Positions 1,329 through 55,221 of a stretch of DNA of 64,000 nucleotides are shown here, piece after piece. A program made the position numbers and the translations under genes. How positions within the stretch are numbered: position 1 is the first letter of the stretch; every line of letters begins with the position of its first letter. The notes under the pieces were generated by a model. That model made no database searches. It was not told the DNA's origin and saw only the letters and a list, made by a program, of their open reading frames with translations. The stretch lies in the NCBI GenBank assembly GCA_024403455.1, contig JAKSRR010000012.1, forward strand, positions 1 to 64,000, read 5' to 3'. This DNA is from Lachnospiraceae bacterium. GTDB lineage: Bacteria; Bacillota; Clostridia; Lachnospirales; Lachnospiraceae.

Positions 1329-1368
1329 GACCAAAAGAATACTCCTTGTACCAAAAGGACCGTCCCTG
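1329..1368. repeat. Degenerate half copy (A) of the GGGGACGGTCC palindrome
   Basis: ACTCCTTGTACC followed by AAAAGGACCGTCCCTG matches the right arm of the 80-bp palindrome found intact at 49.0, 52.5 and 53.6 kb. The left arm is missing. It fills the gap between the orphan gene ending at 1298 and the FecR gene at 1396. Confidence 0.7.
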
Positions 1369-45968: not shown

Positions 45969-46025
45969 AGATTGTTTCAGCCACCTCTTTTTGACGAGAA
46001 TCCAATATTTTTTGAAAATAAGGGT

Positions 46026-46052
46026 TAAGTATGGAACGATTCTATCCGATAC
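46026..46052 (+). promoter_or_regulatory. Sigma-D (sigma-28)-like promoter
   Basis: TAAG (46026-46029), exactly 15 bases, then TCCGATAC (46045-46052). This is close to the flagellar/chemotaxis sigma-D consensus TAAA-N15-GCCGATAT. It precedes the gene at 46099 by about 40 bases. Confidence 0.6.
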
Positions 46053-46098
46053 AATACTTACCAAGTATAGCTACAACCATAGAAAGGAGACGAAAAAC

Positions 46099-46704
46099 AT
46101 GGATGTAAATGGAGTTACAAGTGTAGCAAGCAGTAATATGGTGCAGGCAGGAAGCAAGACAGAGACAGCAGCTGTAGAGGCACAGGCTGAAAAGACTTCC
46201 ACTTCTTTTAGCGAAGAAGCGGCAGTTTTTGAGAAAAGCGAGGCAGCAGCACCTGCAAAGACCTATACCCCTAACACGGATATGGTGGCAAAGCTGAAGG
46301 CAGATGCAGAGGCAAGAACCAGCCAGCTGCAGGATATTGTAAATAAGCTGTTAACCAAGCAGGCCGGAACCTATAATGCAGCTAATGGGTTAAAGAGTCT
46401 TTTTGAGAATCTTGAAGTGGATGAGGCAACTCGTGCGCAGGCTGAGAAAGACATTGCAGATGATGGATACTGGGGCGTAGATCAGACCTCTTCCAGAATC
46501 TTTGATTTCGCTATGGCACTGTCCGGTGGTGATCCCGACAAGATGGAACAGATGCGTGATGCATTCACCAAGGGATTCAAGCAGGCAACTGGTACCTGGG
46601 GAGCTGATCTTCCTGATATCAGCCAGAGAACCGCAGAAGCTGTTTACCAGAAGTTCGATGATTACAAGAAGCAGATGGAAGAGCAGACTGCTGGAACCGT
46701 ATAA
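46099..46704 (+). CDS. Conserved-looking protein, possibly motility-regulated
   Basis: 201 residues. A low-complexity Ala/Ser/Glu-rich N-terminus (1-65) precedes a helical domain (about 75-195) with DIADDGYWGVDQTSSRIFDF, ALSGGDPDKMEQMRDAFTKG and TWGADLPDISQRTAEAVYQK. Similar YW...GGDP...LPDIS domains occur in many bacteria, some misleadingly labelled hydrogenase-4 component G; function is unknown. The upstream sigma-D-like promoter suggests expression with flagellar genes. AAAGGAG sets the ATG. It ends just before a palindrome half copy and a terminator. Confidence 0.8.
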   Translation: MDVNGVTSVASSNMVQAGSKTETAAVEAQAEKTSTSFSEEAAVFEKSEAAAPAKTYTPNTDMVAKLKADAEARTSQLQDIVNKLLTKQAGTYNAANGLKSLFENLEVDEATRAQAEKDIADDGYWGVDQTSSRIFDFAMALSGGDPDKMEQMRDAFTKGFKQATGTWGADLPDISQRTAEAVYQKFDDYKKQMEEQTAGTV

Positions 46705-46713
46705 ACAAACATC

Positions 46714-46745
46714 AGGGACACTCCTTATCCCATTAGGACCGTCCT
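46714..46745. repeat. Right-half copy (B) of the palindromic repeat
   Basis: AGGGACACTCC, TTATCCCATTA and GGACCGTCCT match the right half of the intact copies; the left half is absent. It sits between the stop of the preceding gene and a terminator, the same place as in copies D and E. Confidence 0.85.
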
Positions 46746-46759
46746 AGGAAAGGAACACA

Positions 46760-46783
46760 GGGGCGCAAAATGCGCCCCTTTTT
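46760..46783 (+). terminator. Rho-independent terminator GGGGCGC/GCGCCCC
   Basis: GGGGCGC (46760-46766) pairs with GCGCCCC (46772-46778) around AAAAT, then TTTTT. It shares the GGCGC-AAAAT-GCGCC core with the terminators at 49992 and 51585. Confidence 0.92.
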
Positions 46784-46798
46784 ATATGGAAAAGTGAG

Positions 46799-46872
46799 TT
46801 ATTCGCTTTAAATGATTTAAAAGCGAATAAAAAAATAATTAAAGCGAATAAAAATTGACTTAAAACGAATAA
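46799..46872 (+). promoter_or_regulatory. Operator array: four copies of a TTAAAGCGAATAA motif
   Basis: One inverted copy (46799-46812) and three direct copies (46816-46830, 46837-46851, 46859-46872) lie before the HTH-GHKL gene. Equivalent C residues of the direct copies are at 46824, 46845 and 46866, exactly 21 bases apart, which puts them on one face of the helix. The last copy covers the -35/spacer of the promoter. Confidence 0.8.
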
Positions 46873-46883
46873 TGTACTATTTT
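46855..46883 (+). promoter_or_regulatory. Sigma-A promoter of the HTH-GHKL-STAS gene
   Basis: TTGACT (46855-46860), 17 bases, TATTTT (46878-46883). The fourth operator copy fills the spacer, as expected for repression. Confidence 0.7.
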
Positions 46884-46906
46884 ATTAGGAAAGGTTAGGT
46901 GAGCAT

Positions 46907-47920
46907 ATGAAAATTTCAGAAGAAAGAAAAAAACAGATTATTATTTATTTGCTTGAAAAAATATACCAGAAGCATGAATCTATCTCAAAAACTGTGATGG
47001 AAGCATTTGATATCAACCAAAATACGGTTCATAGGTATATTAACCAATTAGTAGACGATGGCGTAATCCGAAGAGTAAAACGTGGACAGTATGAACTAGT
47101 CTCAAATGTACATGAATATAATATAACCAAAGGGGAGAAAACTATGGTGGATGATACCGTTGCATATACACGATATCTCTCGCCGTTGATTCAGGAATTT
47201 GGAAATAATGTTCAGCACATCTGGAATTACACATTTAGTGAGATGATGAATAATGTTATTGACCACGCAAATGCTGAAAAAGTTAGCATCATAGTGGAAC
47301 AGAATTATCTTTCAACTACGGCTATTATAGTCGATGACGGTATCGGTATATTTCAAAAAATAAAAGAGTACTTTAATTTTGAGACACTTGAAGAAGCAAT
47401 TGGTGAACTGTTTAAAGGGAAGTTAACAACAGATGCGAAGAATCATTCCGGTGAAGGGATTTTTTTTAGCTCTAAAATGATGGATGACTTTTTTATTGTA
47501 TCGAGTGGTAAGATTTTTACGACAAATAAATTCGATAACACAAGAATTATTGATATGGCATCTGAAAATACAAAGGGAACAATTGTGTTGATGAAGTTGT
47601 CGAATTACACAAATAAGGAAGCGAAGGAAGTATTTGATTTATATGCTAATGTTGATGGAGGATTTATAAGGACAAGGATCCCTTTGAAGAATTTCTTTGA
47701 AACTTCGCCTGTGTCACGTTCACAAGCAAAACGAGTTTGTAACAGATTAGAAAAATTTAAAGAAGTTATTTTAGATTTTGATGGAGTTGACTGGATAGGA
47801 CAGGCTTTTGCACATCAACTATTTGTTGTGTTTGCAAAGGAACATCAGGATATAACACTGCATCCAGAAAATATGAACCAGGATATTTCGAAAATGTATA
47901 ATCACGTGTTATTACAATAA
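46907..47920 (+). CDS. Winged-helix / GHKL ATPase / STAS-like (DUF4325) protein
   Basis: 337 residues in three parts. Residues 1-65 form a winged helix-turn-helix (DINQNTVHRYINQLVDDGVI). Residues about 90-255 form a GHKL ATPase with N box SEMMNNVIDHA, VDDGIGIF and HSGEGIFFSS. Residues about 268-335 match the STAS-like DUF4325 fold (VILDFDGVDWIGQAFAHQL). GHKL plus STAS in one chain recalls SpoIIAB/SpoIIAA switches, so ATP-dependent control of DNA binding is a sensible inference. The operator array upstream suggests autoregulation. A ribosome site AGGTGA lies before the ATG. The gene is AT-rich and opens the accessory block. Confidence 0.85.
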   Translation: MKISEERKKQIIIYLLEKIYQKHESISKTVMEAFDINQNTVHRYINQLVDDGVIRRVKRGQYELVSNVHEYNITKGEKTMVDDTVAYTRYLSPLIQEFGNNVQHIWNYTFSEMMNNVIDHANAEKVSIIVEQNYLSTTAIIVDDGIGIFQKIKEYFNFETLEEAIGELFKGKLTTDAKNHSGEGIFFSSKMMDDFFIVSSGKIFTTNKFDNTRIIDMASENTKGTIVLMKLSNYTNKEAKEVFDLYANVDGGFIRTRIPLKNFFETSPVSRSQAKRVCNRLEKFKEVILDFDGVDWIGQAFAHQLFVVFAKEHQDITLHPENMNQDISKMYNHVLLQ

Positions 47921-48024
47921 TATGATACGCATTCAGACTAAAGTGTTAAGTGCCGTTGATTCGGGATACCAAAATGAAGAAATACAATGAGAAGAAGTTG
48001 TAGTTTTATAAAAGGGGAGAAAAA

Positions 48025-48987
48025 ATGCCTAGTATTGGATACATTATAGCCGGCATAGTAGTTATTGTACTTGTTTTTCTTAAACTATCGGGACTGCTAG
48101 GAAAAAAAGATGGCTGGGTCTCAAGGAACGACTTTGAGAATGCTAAGAGAGCATTACGACCTAATTTTTCTGCAGGAGAGTTTGAGAGATTTATTACTTT
48201 TCTTAATGGATATAAAGGAGGATACGTTCGTCGTCAATCGGGGATGATTGTATTTCAAGATTATACAGGAAAAGAAAAAGGCGATCTCAAAGGAATTTTT
48301 TATAATTTAGTGTTTCCAAATCCCAATATCAGCGTGTGCCAGAAAGAAGAGTTTAGAAAATTTCTATTAAATGTTGGCGTAACTGGTATAGATAGAAGGC
48401 CGGATTATGAAACGAGAGACAGCAAGTTGAAGAATCATAAATCTGGAGAAGAGTTCAAAAGAAAAGAAGTGGGAAATATAGGCGAGCAAGTTGTTAGGAA
48501 CGAATTGACCAAACTTCAAAATATGGGATACTCTGTTATAAACGGTCCTGTTCTTAAGAATGGTGCAGAGTGTAAAGAGTATGATCACATTGTTGTTGGT
48601 GCGAATGGTGTGTTTTGCCTAGAAACAAAAGCATTTGGTATGACAGAAGGGAGAAGTACCAAGGCGGCCTTATTTATTGATGATGGCGATAAGTGGATTA
48701 TTAGGAAAAATAAAGTGAACAGAAGTCTTGAATCGCCAACGGCGCAGATACTGGTTGAACAACAGTTTTTGGCAAATATTATTAGTGACTCTTGTCTGCT
48801 TGAAGTACATCCTATTCTTGTACTGTGTAACAGAGAACTGTTCGTAAAGAATAATATATCGTTGCCCTACAGAATAGTTAGGGTTGACGAGTTGTGTGAG
48901 TGTATTAGGCAGTATAAGGATGTTGTTACGGATAATGATAGAATGTTTATCTTGTCCGATATTGATAAACATAGAATAAATCAATAG
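48025..48987 (+). CDS. NERD-domain membrane-anchored protein
   Basis: 320 residues. One N-terminal membrane helix (about 5-24), a charged region, and a NERD (nuclease-related) domain at about 150-265: GNIGEQVVRNELTKL, NGAECKEYDHIVVGANGVFCLETKAF. The D-H...E-K pattern is that of the PD-(D/E)XK-like core. NERD proteins are suspected nucleases or DNA-processing factors and are frequent in mobile and defence loci. It follows the GHKL-STAS gene by 104 bases with AAGGGGAG before the ATG, and could share its regulation. Confidence 0.85.
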   Translation: MPSIGYIIAGIVVIVLVFLKLSGLLGKKDGWVSRNDFENAKRALRPNFSAGEFERFITFLNGYKGGYVRRQSGMIVFQDYTGKEKGDLKGIFYNLVFPNPNISVCQKEEFRKFLLNVGVTGIDRRPDYETRDSKLKNHKSGEEFKRKEVGNIGEQVVRNELTKLQNMGYSVINGPVLKNGAECKEYDHIVVGANGVFCLETKAFGMTEGRSTKAALFIDDGDKWIIRKNKVNRSLESPTAQILVEQQFLANIISDSCLLEVHPILVLCNRELFVKNNISLPYRIVRVDELCECIRQYKDVVTDNDRMFILSDIDKHRINQ

Positions 48988-49005
48988 AACATCGAGTAGA
49001 ATATC

Positions 49006-49085
49006 GGGGACGGTCCTTTTGGGCACAGGTGTGTCCCTTTGAGTTGTAGCAGAGGGACACTCCTTATCCCATTAGGACCGTCCCC
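49006..49085. repeat. Palindromic repeat copy C (full length)
   Basis: 80 bases. Outer arms GGGGACGGTCC/GGACCGTCCCC are perfect 11-mers. Inner arms around AGGTGTGTCCC/GGGACACTCCT pair with one or two mismatches, and the centre is TTTGAGTTGTAGCAGA. It fills the gap between the NERD gene and the first lipoprotein gene. Confidence 0.93.
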
Positions 49086-49100
49086 AGGAGGAAAGGGAGA

Positions 49101-49811
49101 ATGACAGTGCAACATAATAAGAAAATATTATTTTTACTAATGATGTTACTCATTTCATTTGGCTTATGTGGCTGTGGAAGTGTGAGTGGCAAAGCAAAAA
49201 AAGCAGCGCAGGAATATTTGCAAGATAAATATGGTCAAGAAGCAAAAATCGTGAAATCGGAAAAGAATTATAACTTTACGGGACCGGGTGGAGGCTTGTT
49301 GCCAACCGGTATTGAGTCAGATGAAAGTTATAATTTTGTTGTAGAAATGGGGAGCGAGCAGTTTGACGTCTGCTTAATATATGATGGTTCAAAGTATTAT
49401 GGTTATGATAACTACGAAGCGGGACTAATTAAGGCAGAAGTAATCGATGATGTTGAGCGTCAGCTTGGTATTAGTTGTGCAGATGCATTTTTGTCTTATG
49501 GTGAAATATACGAGAAGTATGGAACAAACATGATTCACGAGCCCTTTTCAGATTTGGCATCGATTTATGAAAATGGTAAGTTTGCAATCATTATAGCAAC
49601 CTATGATGCAATTAATTTGGATAAGGTTGAGGAGTATGCGACGAAATATAGTGTCGAGGATGAGAAGAGTATTCTTCGAATAGAGATTATACAGTATAAG
49701 GATGTTATTCCCGAACTAAGCTTTTCTTCTTTCTCGGAGGCGAATGATCCACAATATGCACTGGACTGGTGCACCATTTCCAATGGCAGTGTTAAGCACC
49801 ACGATGATTGA
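49101..49811 (+). CDS. Predicted lipoprotein 1 of the accessory block
   Basis: 236 residues. A signal peptide (about 5-22) ends in the lipobox FGLCGC. The mature part has a helix KAKKAAQEYLQDKYG, as in small peptidase-inhibitor or PepSY-like proteins, then Tyr/Asp-rich strands. Family not recognised. The ATG has AGGAGG and GGGAG directly upstream, both only a few bases after the palindrome, so its promoter must lie in or before the repeat; read-through from the NERD gene is likely. Confidence 0.75.
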   Translation: MTVQHNKKILFLLMMLLISFGLCGCGSVSGKAKKAAQEYLQDKYGQEAKIVKSEKNYNFTGPGGGLLPTGIESDESYNFVVEMGSEQFDVCLIYDGSKYYGYDNYEAGLIKAEVIDDVERQLGISCADAFLSYGEIYEKYGTNMIHEPFSDLASIYENGKFAIIIATYDAINLDKVEEYATKYSVEDEKSILRIEIIQYKDVIPELSFSSFSEANDPQYALDWCTISNGSVKHHDD

Positions 49812-49847
49812 TATCCGTTGAAAAAAGAGCAGTGTGAGGCGCGGTGG

Positions 49848-49890
49848 TTATTTAATCAGCTTTTGAATCTTTGCGGCATCGTATACCACT
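49848..49890 (-). pseudogene. Remnant of the 3' end of a Lon-like AAA+ gene
   Basis: Read on the minus strand this stretch encodes VVYDAAKIQKLIK and a stop. The intact AAA+ protein at 53722 ends VVYDATKIHELIE and a stop. The DNA is also similar (GGCATCGTATACCACTT in both). Only these about 14 codons remain, immediately beside palindrome copy D. This indicates that a second copy of the AAA+ gene was once here and was lost. Confidence 0.75.
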
Positions 49891-49903
49891 TGGTAAAAAT
49901 TAG

Positions 49904-49976
49904 GTACTCTTTGGCACAGGAGTGTCTCTTTGATTTGTATCAGAGGGACACTCCTTATCCCATTAGGACCGTCCCC
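49904..49976. repeat. Palindromic repeat copy D (left arm degraded)
   Basis: The inner and right arms match copies C and E; the outer left arm is reduced to GGTACTCTTTGGCACAGG. It begins the longer duplicated cassette continuing to about 50070. Confidence 0.9.
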
Positions 49977-49991
49977 CGGGGAGGTACGCAG

Positions 49992-50016
49992 GAGGCGCAA
50001 AATGCGCCTCTTTTTT
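49992..50016 (+). terminator. Terminator of the duplicated cassette, copy 1
   Basis: GAGGCGC (49992-49998) pairs with GCGCCTC (50004-50010) around AAAAT, then six T. Identical in copy 2 at 51585. Confidence 0.92.
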
Positions 50017-50053
50017 GTAGGGTAAAAGTTTGAGGAAAATTGGGGAAATGGCT

Positions 50054-50107
50054 TGATATACTACGTTTATCAAGGACTAGCCCCACCTTGACGGTGAGCC
50101 TAGTCCT
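50054..50107 (+). promoter_or_regulatory. Extended -10 promoter and 5' leader hairpin, cassette copy 1
   Basis: TGATATACT (50054-50062) is an extended -10. The hairpin AGGACTAG (50073-50080) with CTAGTCCT (50100-50107), plus inner CACC/GGTG, begins 11 bases downstream, so the mRNA would start almost at the stem. In copy 2 the sequence of the stem differs but pairing is kept. Confidence 0.65.
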
Positions 50108-50139
50108 AGTTGTATTTATTAAATGTGTGGAGGATATGT

Positions 50140-51462
50140 ATGAAAAAGAAGTATGTTGTTTTGTTACTTACTTGCGTATTTGTGGGATCATCAATGAGCG
50201 CTTGTGGTAAAACGGAAATTCCTGAAATGGTGCAGGAGGAGGTAGTTGAAGAAAATATTCCAGAGAAGCAGCAGGAGCAGGAAGAACCGGAGATAGAAGA
50301 GGTTGAGGAAGAGGAACAGGTTGTTGAAGAAATTCCTGATGCAGGAGAGGAATATGAAATATCTAGTGTGAGTCGAATGGGAGATGGCTTTTGCTGGGCT
50401 TATGCAGACGAATTGGGGCGCGTACTCATGAGTGTTGAGGGCGACTATATTTGTAGTATTACAGGGGACATTCGCGACGTGGGAGAAATCGCAAATGGAA
50501 TAACCTATTATACTGTTGAGAAAGAAAATGACTATAAAGAAGTATATGATTTACATGTTCTGAATACAAAAGGTGAAGAAGTATATTTTGCTGATGATGT
50601 GGATTATGTGCTCAGTGACGATGACGGAAATATTATATATGCGAAAACAGAAGCAGATTATTCTTCGTCATCATGTAAAACATATTTACTGCATAGTAAG
50701 GATCAGTCAGTTGATTCCCTGGAAATTGAAACCAGTTATGACAATAATCTCGAGGCCTACAGAATTACTGAAGGTGTCTATGTTTTAATGTGGTGGTATT
50801 TGGATTTTAACAGAAATATTGCATTCCAATTTGATCATGAAGCTAAGCTGGCCGATGATAATTATATTTATGTGGATGTGGCTGGTATAAACTTACATTC
50901 ACGAATTGACAAAAAGTCTTTGGAAAATATTTCAACGAAGGACGAGTTTGATGCGTTGGTAAATGCTAATGCAAATGATTTATATAATTTCCAGTATATT
51001 TCTGATAAGCACTATGTAGGAAATTATTATAACGATAATGGAACTAGCGATATTTTGGATATGAATGATAATGTAATTTTTGCTTTTGATGAGTACATGC
51101 AGGATTTAGATTATGCATCCACAGGAGAGTATCTAGGTGTAACATTTATGGGGGCTGACTATCGGGGCTATGTTACCATTTATGATATGGATTTTAATGT
51201 GGTTTTAGAACCACTGGCGGTTAGTGAAGAAGGGGGTATGTGCTCCATACAGCCTGTAGGTAAGGAACATTTCCTTGTGGATTCATCGATTGTTGGTATA
51301 GATGGAAAGGTGTATGAGGTGACGGATGATAAGTCTAGCCTTGTGAGCGAATATGCCAATCTGGATCATCATCGTTGGATATTAGAAAATGGTTATCTTT
51401 TGGTTTCTGGGCGACTTTATGATGTGAGTGGAAATCAAGTTAAAAAGGTCTTGAAAAAGTAA
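50140..51462 (+). CDS. Predicted lipoprotein 2 of the accessory block
   Basis: 440 residues. Signal peptide (1-20) with lipobox SMSACG. A Glu/Gln-rich, very acidic stretch (about 30-70) acts as a spacer. The rest is beta-rich with repeating segments (GYVTIYDMDFNVVLEP, ISSVSRMGDGFCWAYADELGRVL) that suggest a beta-propeller or similar surface domain. Family not recognised. ATG 50140 is chosen because GGAGGA lies just upstream. It is expressed from the cassette promoter with the leader hairpin. Confidence 0.75.
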   Translation: MKKKYVVLLLTCVFVGSSMSACGKTEIPEMVQEEVVEENIPEKQQEQEEPEIEEVEEEEQVVEEIPDAGEEYEISSVSRMGDGFCWAYADELGRVLMSVEGDYICSITGDIRDVGEIANGITYYTVEKENDYKEVYDLHVLNTKGEEVYFADDVDYVLSDDDGNIIYAKTEADYSSSSCKTYLLHSKDQSVDSLEIETSYDNNLEAYRITEGVYVLMWWYLDFNRNIAFQFDHEAKLADDNYIYVDVAGINLHSRIDKKSLENISTKDEFDALVNANANDLYNFQYISDKHYVGNYYNDNGTSDILDMNDNVIFAFDEYMQDLDYASTGEYLGVTFMGADYRGYVTIYDMDFNVVLEPLAVSEEGGMCSIQPVGKEHFLVDSSIVGIDGKVYEVTDDKSSLVSEYANLDHHRWILENGYLLVSGRLYDVSGNQVKKVLKK

Positions 51463-51493
51463 ACATCGACATTAGGCAACATGGACCACATCA

Positions 51494-51570
51494 GGCGGTC
51501 CATTTGGACACAGGAGTGTCCCTTTGATTTGTATCAGAGGGACACTCCTTATCCCATTAGGACCGTCCCC
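51494..51570. repeat. Palindromic repeat copy E
   Basis: Left outer arm slightly degraded (GGCGGTCC), inner arms AGGAGTGTCCC/GGGACACTCCT perfect, right arm GGACCGTCCCC intact. Together with the following terminator and promoter it is nearly identical to the cassette around copy D over about 165 bases. Confidence 0.93.
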
Positions 51571-51584
51571 GGGAAGGTACGCAG

Positions 51585-51609
51585 GAGGCGCAAAATGCGC
51601 CTCTTTTTT
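51585..51609 (+). terminator. Terminator of the duplicated cassette, copy 2
   Basis: GAGGCGC (51585-51591), AAAAT loop, GCGCCTC (51597-51603), six T. Confidence 0.92.
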
Positions 51610-51646
51610 GTAGGGTAAAAGTTTGAGGAAAGCTGGGGAAATGGCT

Positions 51647-51699
51647 TGATATACTACGCTTATCAAGTGCTGTGGCCCCTTGACAGTGCCCACAGCACT
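51647..51699 (+). promoter_or_regulatory. Extended -10 promoter and 5' leader hairpin, cassette copy 2
   Basis: TGATATACT (51647-51655) is followed 11 bases later by AGTGCTGTGG (51666-51675) pairing perfectly with CCACAGCACT (51690-51699). The stem sequence is unrelated to copy 1 while its position and length are the same. Confidence 0.65.
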
Positions 51700-51730
51700 A
51701 TTATTTTGTTGATGAAAGGTTAAGCGGTAT

Positions 51731-52489
51731 ATGAAAAAGAAACTGGTATGTGTACTATTTTGTGCGTGTTCTGCATTTGTTGTTCTTGCTGGTTGTGGCA
51801 AAGGAAATGTTCAAAATCAAGAGAATATGGTAGAAAGTGAAAGTGCTGGCGAAGAGAGTGAGGCTTCATCTTTAACAGCAGTAACGAGTAGTGATTCTGT
51901 GGATGAAGAAGCTGTGCAAATTGAGGAAACATTGGAAGAAGAGCAGGAAGTAGATGTTATAGCAGACGCTATTGCTGATTCTTGGATTAAATCAATTGAT
52001 GTATTAACATTTACGGATTATAGCCAGATTGCAGAACTATATGGTGAATCAGAAGATCATTCATACATATATGAGGATTCTACATATGGTCCTTATGGAT
52101 TCGCTTTTTCTGATACACATGGTGTGACGTCAGTAGCATTAGATTTTTTTAGGTATAATGCTGAGAATATGCGAAGACAAAAACAGGATTATTATGACCA
52201 GTATGCTATTACTTCTGATTTACTTACGGAATACTGTAATGAGTCTTTTACTGGATTTTATAACGATGCTGGTCTAGATAAGATGAATTATAAGGAAATC
52301 CAAGAACTGTTTGGAAATAAAGGAGTAATCGTTAAGTTATCAAAAGATGTACCGGGTGCACAACACTTCTATGTGATGGTCGAATGGTATGTTTCAGATA
52401 TCAATAAGACATTTGTGGTGTATTTTGATAGAAATGGTAATGTTACAAAAGGAAAATATGGTAGCTTTCAATTTTGGGAGGTAAAATAA
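51731..52489 (+). CDS. Predicted lipoprotein 3 of the accessory block
   Basis: 252 residues. Signal peptide with lipobox VLAGCG, then an acidic Ser/Glu-rich spacer (about 25-80). The mature domain (about 85-250) has mixed helices and strands with many Tyr/Asp and ends TKGKYGSFQFWEVK. Family not recognised; not an obvious homologue of lipoproteins 1 and 2 although all share lipobox plus acidic linker or charged helix. Controlled by cassette copy 2. It is convergent with the next gene, with palindrome copy F between them. Confidence 0.75.
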   Translation: MKKKLVCVLFCACSAFVVLAGCGKGNVQNQENMVESESAGEESEASSLTAVTSSDSVDEEAVQIEETLEEEQEVDVIADAIADSWIKSIDVLTFTDYSQIAELYGESEDHSYIYEDSTYGPYGFAFSDTHGVTSVALDFFRYNAENMRRQKQDYYDQYAITSDLLTEYCNESFTGFYNDAGLDKMNYKEIQELFGNKGVIVKLSKDVPGAQHFYVMVEWYVSDINKTFVVYFDRNGNVTKGKYGSFQFWEVK

Positions 52490-52530
52490 TTTGGTGGTTA
52501 AGAACACCGGGAATCGTTCACAAAAACATC

Positions 52531-52610
52531 GGGGACGGTCCTAATGGGATAAGGAGTGTCCCTCTGATGCAAATCAAAGTGACACTCCACTGCCCAAAAG
52601 GACCGTCCCT
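52531..52610. repeat. Palindromic repeat copy F (inverted relative to C-E)
   Basis: 80 bases with arms GGGGACGGTCC and GGACCGTCCCT. The asymmetric centre (GATGCAAATCAAAG) is the reverse complement of that in D and E, so this copy is in the opposite orientation. The 3' end of the minus-strand gene lies inside it. Confidence 0.93.
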
Positions 52611-53620
52611 GGGAGTGGTCTAGTTTTCATAAATTCCTCAAACCGCTGGTCAATCCGTTTCTCAAAGAGAGTATACTTTTCATAATTGAAGTCTCTGCAA
52701 TAGATTGGCCCGTCTGTGCCCTCTAGGGATTGCAGTACAATTTCACCATAATCCTTACTGTAGAAAACTTCTCTGAGTTCTCGCTTATTTGTAGACGGAT
52801 TAAAGAATAACGATTCGTAATAGTTGTCTAAAAATTCAGCATATATAGGAAGAATATCATTCCTGCTCACCTTTCCATCCAACCGATAATAAATAAACTC
52901 TGCGGGGTTCTCTTCACCGTCGGCTAGGGCACGGAAAGTCTCAGTCATTTCTCCGCCTAAGGCTGATACAAATTCTTCCTCGTTAATTCCGTTTCTTCTC
53001 AGAAGCCATAAAAACAAATATGCAAATTCATTACAACTATAAATATTAATCTCGTCAATCGCTTCTGGATGCTTCTCTAAATACTGATCAAAGTAGCTTT
53101 CCACATCATCGATAGTACTTCGCTCTTCCTCGGACATACGGTCAAGTAAAATATTCCTGTACTCATCCCAGGTATCGTCCCAGCTCCATTCTGCGTTAAA
53201 GGATGAGAACTTCCACGACGAAGCGTTTTCAGACACATTCTCCTTTGGGATGGCTTTCATCGACATTCCTTTATGAAATCCATACATGGAAAGAATGGTA
53301 ATTGTTTCGCAAATTGCAATGGTAATCATGGCTCCAATTGCCTCATGATCGCCACCCGCCACTTCTTTGATAAACTGGAATAATAGTGCTGACATAGCAG
53401 CAACCAGGTACATTCCAATCATCGGCAGAAATATATACTTTTTCCCTTTTCTTACACGATTAATCTCGCCAATATTAATTGCCGTTACAAGCAAAAAAAG
53501 CACCAACATTGCCTGTCCATAGATTTCCCCTTCTGTCATCATGACAAAAGAGGCCACAGACATTAAAAGACTGAAAATCGTTAATAATACAAGGATTATA
53601 CATTTAATACTATTGCTCAT
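52574..53620 (-). CDS. Membrane protein with soluble C-terminal domain, tail encoded by the repeat
   Basis: 348 residues. Four hydrophobic helices (about 7-28, 35-50, 63-85, 92-112) precede a soluble acidic helical domain (about 140-340). Family not recognised. The last about 12 residues (LPGTVLLGSGVSL region) and the stop codon are encoded by palindrome F, so the repeat has replaced the original end. On the 5' side, copy G lies 11 bases upstream of the ATG and no normal ribosome site is seen. It probably belonged to an operon with the AAA+ gene upstream. Confidence 0.75.
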   Translation of the reverse strand: MSNSIKCIILVLLTIFSLLMSVASFVMMTEGEIYGQAMLVLFLLVTAINIGEINRVRKGKKYIFLPMIGMYLVAAMSALLFQFIKEVAGGDHEAIGAMITIAICETITILSMYGFHKGMSMKAIPKENVSENASSWKFSSFNAEWSWDDTWDEYRNILLDRMSEEERSTIDDVESYFDQYLEKHPEAIDEINIYSCNEFAYLFLWLLRRNGINEEEFVSALGGEMTETFRALADGEENPAEFIYYRLDGKVSRNDILPIYAEFLDNYYESLFFNPSTNKRELREVFYSKDYGEIVLQSLEGTDGPIYCRDFNYEKYTLFEKRIDQRFEEFMKTRPLPGTVLLGSGVSL

Positions 53621-53631
53621 CTGTTTACATT

Positions 53632-53711
53632 GGGGACGGTCCTTTTGGGATTAGGAGTGTCCCTCTGATGCAAATCAAAGTGACACTCCTGTGCCCAAAA
53701 GGACCGTCCCC
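53632..53711. repeat. Palindromic repeat copy G (full length, inverted)
   Basis: 80 bases; both outer arms GGGGACGGTCC/GGACCGTCCCC perfect, same orientation as F. It separates the AAA+ gene from the membrane protein gene. Confidence 0.93.
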
Positions 53712-53721
53712 GGGAAAGGTA

Positions 53722-55221
53722 CTATTCAATTAGTTCATGAATTTTTGTGGCATCGTATACCACTTTAGTGACTTTATTTACTTCAATCTGGAACAGGGCA
53801 TTGGCTGCAATGTGTTCGGCAACCTGCTCTACATCACGAATACCGGAGGTGCCGGAGCAAAGGTCTACAATGACTTCCAGACCATCATCGGTAATTTCTA
53901 TTTCATCATTGGTCATGCCCATTCTCTTTAAAATCTTAGGTAGAGCAAATTTACTGAAGATAACCTTCTTTTCCTCTTTGGTATAGTCCGGAATCTCAAT
54001 GACGGCAAAACGGGACATGATAGGTGCGCTGATTTTGCTCTTATCATTGGCGGTAGCAATAGGATAAACGCCATCGGTAGGAATCATACATTCCATGTAG
54101 TTGTCAGTGAATCCTAAGTTATCTAATAATGTCAGTAAAACATCGGCAGGATTTCCGTTGCCCTTGCCCTCGTTTGCCTTATCCAACTCGTTAATGATGA
54201 ATACCAGTTTGGACTCCCCGGCTTGGGAGAAGGCTTCCATAATAATACCTGGCTTGGCATTGGCATATACACGGGAAGAACCGGTGAGCTGCTCAGGGTC
54301 ATTGATAGAACTCATATCCAGTGTAGTCCATGCAAGCTTTAAAATTTTAGCGACTGCGTAAGCTACCTGCGATTTACCAGTACCAGCGGGACCAACAATT
54401 AAAAGTCCATAGGCAGGAAGGGTATGGGTACGATTGATCTGAATAATGGTTTCGATGACACGCTGCTTTACCTTCTCCATGCCATAGAGTTCTTCGTCTA
54501 AAATGCGTCTTGCTTCCACCGGATCAATAGCAGAGAAATAATTACTCTTCCAATTAATGCCCATCATAACGGAAAGAGCACGAAGAGCATGGCGACGTTC
54601 CTCGGGGGAGACTTCATTGGACTTTGCTACGGCTAAATTGCGGCGAGCCCAGACCTGAATGTTTTCGGGCAGAGTCTTGCCTGCGCAGGAGATGAAGTCA
54701 GTGATAGACTGGATACTGGTAAGCTTCATGCTGTCGCCATCGATGTCTCGATCGTCGCTGTCTTCGTCAATAGCTTCCTCTACTGGGGGATCGCTGGAAA
54801 GCAGACGGTCAATCATATACTGAAGGAACCCGTTTTCAGAGGATACCTTACCGCTGTTACTTTGCGCCAACTCTCTGATTTTATATACTGCGTATCCTTC
54901 TTCTGTCGGATAGCCGGACAGCTTAATCTTGATATGATTTTCGCCTAACCATTTAATTAAGCTAGTAAATCTTGAATCGATTTTAAGAATGTCGAACCAG
55001 ACCTTTTCATCACTGTCTGGATTATGAAATTCAAAAGAACTCCGCTTAATGGGATTAATGAACATACCGTTGGAATGGTGTTTCAGGGCTCCATTTTTAT
55101 CCTCTAATATAAGGATAGGATGTTCTTTACTTGTCTCGTTTTCATACGACTTGAAAGTAGTATAGGTGCAGATGGCGTCGGCCTTGTTGCCTTCGTCCTT
55201 ATTAAAATCAAAAACGGGCAT
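53722..55221 (-). CDS. Lon-like AAA+ ATPase without protease domain
   Basis: 499 residues. The N-terminal 220 residues are unrecognised, with an acidic stretch at about 145-165. The AAA+ part (about 230-490) is Lon-like: ARRILDEELYGMEKVKQRV, Walker A GPAGTGKS (277-284), a Walker B-like FIINELDK in which the usual Asp is Asn344 before Glu345, sensor 1 PIATANDKS, arginine-finger region PIMSRFAVIEIPDY, and sensor 2 GTSGIRDVEQ. No Ser/Lys peptidase domain follows. It may act as a chaperone or remodelling ATPase for a nearby protein. AAGGAG sets the ATG. A remnant of a second copy is at 49848. Confidence 0.82.
   Translation of the reverse strand: MPVFDFNKDEGNKADAICTYTTFKSYENETSKEHPILILEDKNGALKHHSNGMFINPIKRSSFEFHNPDSDEKVWFDILKIDSRFTSLIKWLGENHIKIKLSGYPTEEGYAVYKIRELAQSNSGKVSSENGFLQYMIDRLLSSDPPVEEAIDEDSDDRDIDGDSMKLTSIQSITDFISCAGKTLPENIQVWARRNLAVAKSNEVSPEERRHALRALSVMMGINWKSNYFSAIDPVEARRILDEELYGMEKVKQRVIETIIQINRTHTLPAYGLLIVGPAGTGKSQVAYAVAKILKLAWTTLDMSSINDPEQLTGSSRVYANAKPGIIMEAFSQAGESKLVFIINELDKANEGKGNGNPADVLLTLLDNLGFTDNYMECMIPTDGVYPIATANDKSKISAPIMSRFAVIEIPDYTKEEKKVIFSKFALPKILKRMGMTNDEIEITDDGLEVIVDLCSGTSGIRDVEQVAEHIAANALFQIEVNKVTKVVYDATKIHELIE

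Follow-up and report, generated by a model that had tools for sequence, protein, structure and literature searches.

The inverted end-sequence pairs of REPIN-RAYT systems reportedly form one hairpin each, are dispersed between genes and are linked to a single gene for a REP-associated tyrosine transposase (RAYT). The present analysis concerns a family of 80-bp palindromic repeats in 64,000 nucleotides of a Lachnospiraceae bacterium (GCA_024403455.1, contig JAKSRR010000012.1, positions 1 to 64,000), a stretch referred to as the window and designated contig C4 of the analysis. These palindromes are very probably REPIN-like non-autonomous mobile elements spread in trans by the genome's single RAYT/TIRYT. 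The kind of system is already known, and what is new is a REPIN-like repeat population accompanied by a TIRYT/subclass 2.1-like enzyme.

RAYT-like genes lying between terminal inverted repeats, several of them with the motif GGGGWSAS, are described as TIRYTs in the available passages of Di Nocera et al. 2013 (PMC3733652), together with repeat families that are moderately abundant in some genomes and include many dimers or clusters. The main text of that paper contains neither "Firmicutes" nor "Clostridi-". According to the accessible parts of Quentin et al. 2018 (PMC6006769), TnpAREP subclass 2.1 probably corresponds to the TIRYTs, no REP-like sequences were found with this subclass, and the REP families underlying the survey were mostly from Proteobacteria; the available passages of PMC8266576 contain nothing on subclass 2.1. 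No description of the repeat family reported here, including the letters GGGACGGT, was found among the literature matches listed, a set mostly outside subscription papers.

Repeat architecture and the transposase gene

Copies across the window's own genome (a draft metagenome-assembled genome (MAG), 82% complete; the other genomes used are also drafts) revealed a modular arm, in which a 16-nt terminus T, GGGGACGGTCCTTTTG, is followed by zero to four units U of 20 nt. The U consensus in this genome, GGCAnAGGAGTGTCCCTCTG, was obtained from 43 units at 39 T ends, and a second unit, where found, lies exactly 20 nt on in 10 of 13 cases. Copies in the window have the layout T-U-spacer-U'-T'. The first-pass annotation had proposed mobilisation in trans and recommended looking for a linked Y1 transposase, and the only Y1_Tnp gene found in the genome indeed carries the same arms inverted at its flanks, being enclosed by T+3U and inverted T+1U that match the repeat arms of the window. 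Since this gene is on contig C12, apart from the window on C4, mobilisation would be in trans.

The encoded protein of 254 aa features the HUH motif NHVHLL and the catalytic Tyr context RYIHFNP, and it matches Pfam Y1_Tnp with 47 bits (cut-off 23). The best match of its predicted structure is the RAYT 4ER8, in agreement with the fold of TnpAREP, and the model has an additional C-terminal end predicted to be helix-turn-helix-like. Sequence search of the whole transposase against solved structures gave no match, and the C-terminal profile gave weak matches alone.

Further copies, whose absence from the genome would have spoken against a mobile family, proved numerous: 29 exact arms (0 for a reversed-pattern control) and 30 T+U matches were detected in the own genome, with arms on 11 contigs besides that of the window. 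A covariance model built from six copies hit 10 distinct genome places at E<=1, five of which are window copies B-F. Within the window itself, nine GGGGACGGTCC-type arms were found at <=1 mismatch, compared with 0.40 expected, and none of 100 shuffles reached nine. The tally for 46.7-53.7 kb is five two-armed copies (B-F) and the half copy A, listed here relative to the open reading frames (ORFs) together with a further half copy near the start of the window.

Copy A, 46714..46744, + strand: single arm (U' + T'), 10 bp past the stop codon of ORF 45991-46704
Copy B, 49006..49085, + strand: intact 80-bp two-armed repeat, directly followed by AGGAGGAAAGGGAG, the ribosome-binding region of ORF 49101
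Copy C, 49903..49976, + strand: two-armed, left terminus decayed; right flank homologous to the flanks of A and D
Copy D, 51494..51570, + strand: two arms with a decayed left terminus; 101 nt of its right flank are 96% identical to the corresponding flank of C
Copy E, 52531..52610, - strand: intact 80-bp repeat, core inverted
Copy F, 53632..53711, - strand: intact at 80 bp with inverted core, and the strongest hairpin among A-F (DNA fold -33.4 kcal/mol, z -10.3)
Half copy, 1332..1367, - strand: T and one degenerate U unit

The loci that the first-pass annotation had counted as at least six copies and a remnant near 1329 are all real, but A consists of one arm, the left end is decayed in C as well as in D, and 1332-1367 is a half copy; both ends are preserved only in B, E and F. 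Its description of the palindromes as near-perfect was too strong, as arm complementarity ranges from 72 to 87% across the window copies. Its claim that nearly every gap between 46.7 and 53.7 kb is occupied holds, with the repeat in six of the seven intergenic gaps between ORFs 45991 to 55221 (gap 47920-48025 is empty), and so does that of two orientations, the core pointing one way in B, C and D and the opposite way in E and F. Folding as single-stranded DNA against shuffles resulted in z -4.5 to -10.3 for B-F and z -1.35 for the half copy A.

The copies at L004 6930-7014, L003 5148-5280, L002 14960-15056 and L006 4584-4700 of the fetched loci enclose a further short palindrome, GGGTCAAC...GTTGACCC or one of its variants, which suggests that these are mosaic elements. 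The idea that each U unit forms a small hairpin by itself was dropped, with support in only part of the own-genome copies.

Enzyme clade and insertion sites

For comparison among genomes, T+U was chosen as the search pattern in place of the arm GGGGACGGTCC, because GGGGACGGTCC alone is unspecific, being present in 20 of 35 genus genomes; in several of these it stems from the ends GGGGACGGTCCTTCTGTCCTCATT of their different RAYTs. The screen covered 16 genomes, namely the own genome, G190, G128 and 13 others, of which four are close relatives lacking a Y1_Tnp match and nine belong to the genus and have other Y1 transposases. Besides the 30 matches of the own genome, T+U occurs 19 times in G190 and 13 times in G128, and each of the 13 others has 0. 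Matches to the transposase were found in 39 of 200 family genomes, own included, and the closest two are those of G128 and G190, each 52% identical and from other genera. Both have T+U ends as in the own genome, but the linker differs by lineage, being GGCACA in the own genome, TCACAA in G190 and CAACGA in G128.

In a tree of 37 of the 45 transposase rows (the eight left out being fragments, a duplicate and shorter divergent genes), the three T+U carriers, which come from three genera, form a clade of their own (100/99), as do the four with GGGGACGGTCCTTCTGTCCTCATT ends (100/99). As the three T+U genomes fall into one transposase clade, the distribution of the repeat in this sample matches the phylogeny of the enzyme and not that of the hosts. 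Arm counts differed with p 4e-5 between genomes that have a matching RAYT end and those that do not, for groups picked after the ends had been seen. In the genome_contigs collection, where the window's own genome is perhaps not included, exact matching of T+U returned 10 stretches, all from Lachnospiraceae MAGs: nine from G190 (Horse_feces7 MAG007) or G128 (UBA1729) and one from Horse_feces267.

Empty sites in relatives were available at three conserved gene junctions that carry a copy in the own genome. The ribE/ribBA junction has none in G201, G202 and G227 (3/3 readable); the mnmG/rsmG junction has none in G227 and G190 (2/2 with both genes in view, mnmG being out of view beside rsmG in G201 and G217); and the 250 nt downstream of flgG contain none in G201, G227 and G217 (3/3 loci inspected). 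The sites were read by eye, and exact junctions and target duplications are unreadable because the relatives are different species with protein identities of 47-90%. Together with the further copies and the transposase with the same ends, these empty sites bear out the assignment to a RAYT/Y1-type repeat family made in the first-pass annotation.

The base outside GGGG is a pyrimidine at 38/39 ends in the own genome, 23/23 in G190 and 15/15 in G128 (intergenic background 0.50), where the ends of the latter two genomes were gathered via the T+U pattern itself and the ends are not all independent owing to duplicated copies and tandem ends. The lone exception is copy C, in which an extra G leaves the edge uncertain. 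Anti-Shine-Dalgarno-like sequence lies within 10 nt of 10/39 ends in the own genome, 9/23 in G190 and 2/15 in G128, compared with backgrounds of 0.083, 0.072 and 0.092 (intergenic 10-mers, locus subset) and with one-sided p of 0.001, 2e-5 and 0.41, respectively; several copies thus directly adjoin the ribosome-binding site of the gene that follows, an example being B before ORF 49101. With copies in conserved operons beside ribosome-binding sites, the expression of housekeeping genes such as ribBA may change. A GT[AG]G foot is readable at 4/39 own ends, 3/23 in G190 and 9/15 in G128, in the last as GTGG. In G128, GT precedes 9/15 ends, several of them as TAGT right after an apparent TAG stop.

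Relation to described systems

Like the TIRYTs and TIRtrons in the available passages of PMC3733652, the RAYT-like HUH/Y1 gene described here is enclosed by inverted repeats starting with GGGG, and GGGGACGG fits the TIRYT motif GGGGWSAS at 7/8 positions. Different from the TIRYT description in those passages are the 80-bp hairpin dimers, the 20-nt units (tandem in some copies), the matching of clades and the empty sites. The system shares with REPIN-RAYT, as far as the accessible parts of Bertels and Rainey 2011 (PMC3116915) go, an inverted end pair that makes up one hairpin, the intergenic location and the tie to one RAYT gene, and the paired inverted units fold as one hairpin and are dispersed, as expected of REPINs. 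For mobilisation by the RAYT the support is indirect, coming from the clade matching and the empty sites. In contrast to REPIN-RAYT, the GT[AG]G foot is not common to the copies (the 4/39 ends given above), the ends alone are not hairpins and the copies are few, at 30 T+U matches; an unpaired foot of the hairpin like that conserved in classical REPs (GTAG/CGTC tag) is not general here either.

The enzyme resembles TnpAREP subclass 2.1 of PMC6006769, in its available passages, by a Y1 core and a putative C-terminal helix-turn-helix. Unlike what those passages report for subclass 2.1, an enzyme of such a type has a dispersed palindrome family here, and matched pairs of enzyme and repeat extend across three genera of one gut-bacterial family, in an enzyme type recorded without repeats in that part of the survey. 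A single-strand mechanism is expected and a target duplication is not obvious, as for the miniature elements of IS200/IS605, whose mechanism is treated in PMC6006769. Distinct from IS200/IS605, the ends have no subterminal hairpin, and the junction is marked by a pyrimidine instead of a fixed tetranucleotide.

The tandem 20-nt units draw attention to the extra C-terminal domain, which might bind them, although this is speculative. It is a tentative and rather doubtful generalisation that TIRYT/subclass 2.1 RAYTs keep dispersed hairpins, with the HUH domain acting at T and the C-terminal helix-turn-helix reading the U units as duplex iterons in a clade-specific code. We know of no target for the helix-turn-helix domain of the TIRYT/subclass 2.1 type, and the units provide a concrete candidate.

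Hairpin ends were found for 1/25 RAYTs with a helix-turn-helix motif and 4/12 without one (p 0.03, with 8/45 rows left out), a comparison that amounts to one deep tree split and relies on a rough automatic motif call, G085 being an apparent false positive. L031, L032, L034 and L040 harbour RAYTs without the motif between single self-complementary repeats of ~34 nt starting with GGGGACG; most helix-turn-helix RAYTs have non-hairpin ends, unlike these four. In L014 of G128 (1190-2425), a lipoprotein-like gene lies between the right end of the transposase and a further inverted array of T and several 20-nt units, an arrangement in which the gene might travel as a passenger.

Origin of the copies and growth of the block

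Each element is composed of two transposase-end sequences placed head to head (T+U, a short spacer and U'+T'), the single strand of which folds into one long hairpin. For the chemistry, with the enzyme as copier of the elements, we infer the following course. The HUH/Y1 enzyme most likely excises or copies this single-stranded hairpin, cutting and rejoining at its foot, and insertion would adjoin a pyrimidine without target duplication. The copies read are mainly intergenic, several of them immediately next to ribosome-binding sites; these locations may originate from target preference, selection or both, and the six-copy block would have arisen by insertions together with local duplication of flanking DNA.

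Several points weigh against spread by the transposase. Neither excision nor insertion was seen. Single ends outnumber intact pairs by 28 to 6 in the fetched own-genome stretches (script count), two of the 28 being the transposase gene's own ends and two belonging to copies C and D. The protein scores 55.2 bits with NCBIfam REP_Tyr_transpos, under the cut-off of 80, and a second transposase could be absent from the assembly since the genomes are drafts. The unit and flank counts of G190 and G128 are biased by the collection of their ends with the T+U pattern. For the six-copy block itself an empty site could not be read, since relatives have rearranged DNA around the AAA gene; the neighbours of both AAA and argG differ through rearrangement in the fetched stretches of G201, G202, G203 and G227. 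Pairwise identity of the window copies is about 88-96%, and present activity is unproven. The recent activity suggested in the first-pass annotation thus finds no support, because the copies have diverged by about 4-12% and segmental duplication accounts for some of their local density, alongside a shared arm variant.

This variant, TAATG, is present in B, C, D, E and the half copy A and in 0/26 other T+U rows of the own genome, and it suggests that the repeat spread locally instead of arriving six times independently. Homology between C and D extends over ~118 nt of their right flanks, and A shares ~50 nt with both, so that the three most likely represent one insertion that was duplicated and the six copies amount to at most four independent insertions. 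Positions 53723-53765, where the AAA ATPase gene has its 3' end, are matched at 84% by a 43-nt relic beside C (49849-49891), a sign of an earlier rearrangement in the block. From the shared flanks, the TAATG variant and the relic, it follows that the block grew at least partly through local spread and duplication. That F matches a copy on contig C6 at 74/79, slightly closer than E, its nearest window copy, at 74/80, counts against simple local spread.

These same observations raise the question of whether the copies multiplied passively only, by segmental duplication and gene conversion without transposition. In favour of passive duplication are the 50-118 nt of downstream flank common to A, C and D, an arm variant of A-E seen only in the block, and a piece of AAA gene beside C that is homologous to DNA beside F; it is likely for A, C and D. 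As a full account it is very improbable, since same-side flanks of B, E and F, compared over 150 nt, show no similarity exceeding the shuffled threshold, the arms on 11 other contigs stand in unrelated contexts where read, and the three empty sites in relatives, like the closeness of F to the C6 copy, speak against it. An integron collecting cassettes, in which the palindromes would be attC-like sites, is suggested by ~80-bp imperfect palindromes in 6/7 gaps of an accessory block. The core boxes of attC are RYYYAAC and GTTRRRY, whereas inspection by eye shows the repeats ending in GGGGAC/GTCCCC (an integrase was not searched for), and copies that also lie between conserved genes elsewhere and agree with the ends of the Y1 transposase gene render this origin extremely improbable.

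It is also improbable that the palindromes are regulatory RNA hairpins or terminators under selection, resembling the transposase ends because that gene sits in a copy. The folds are strong, several copies lie within conserved operons directly beside ribosome-binding sites, and the anti-Shine-Dalgarno-like flanks are enriched in the own genome and G190, albeit not in G128 (2/15 vs 0.092). However, Rfam assigns no family within 46000-54500, its 4 matches at E<=1 scoring well short of their cut-offs; no long T run follows the copies, and separate terminator-like hairpins come after A, C and D; the same junctions lack a copy in relatives; and presence tracks the transposase clade instead of the host in the 16 genomes tested. 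Terminator-like sites numbered 16 vs 3.9, an excess partly due to the repeats themselves being hairpins, and promoter-like sites numbered 17, below shuffles (26.2). Copy F with its flanks had no match in plasmid and phage collections, and viral contigs gave 0 matches to an 18-nt pattern.

Some features of the block accompany the REPIN-like elements. The 101-nt duplicate beside C and D (49974-50074 and 51567-51667, 96%) contains a terminator-like hairpin, GGCGCAAAATGCGCC, with a T run, and a related terminator-like site is found 3' of copy A at 46759-46779. The genes lying among the repeats (46907-53620) encode a NERD-domain protein, a winged-helix/ATPase/DUF4325 protein, three lipoprotein-like proteins that match nothing in Pfam and a protein with a weak DUF7832 match; the stretches fetched for four relatives around their AAA gene contain none of them. 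Copy E provides the last residues and the TGA stop of ORF 52574-53620 (52574-52610), and may have replaced the native 3' end of this ORF.

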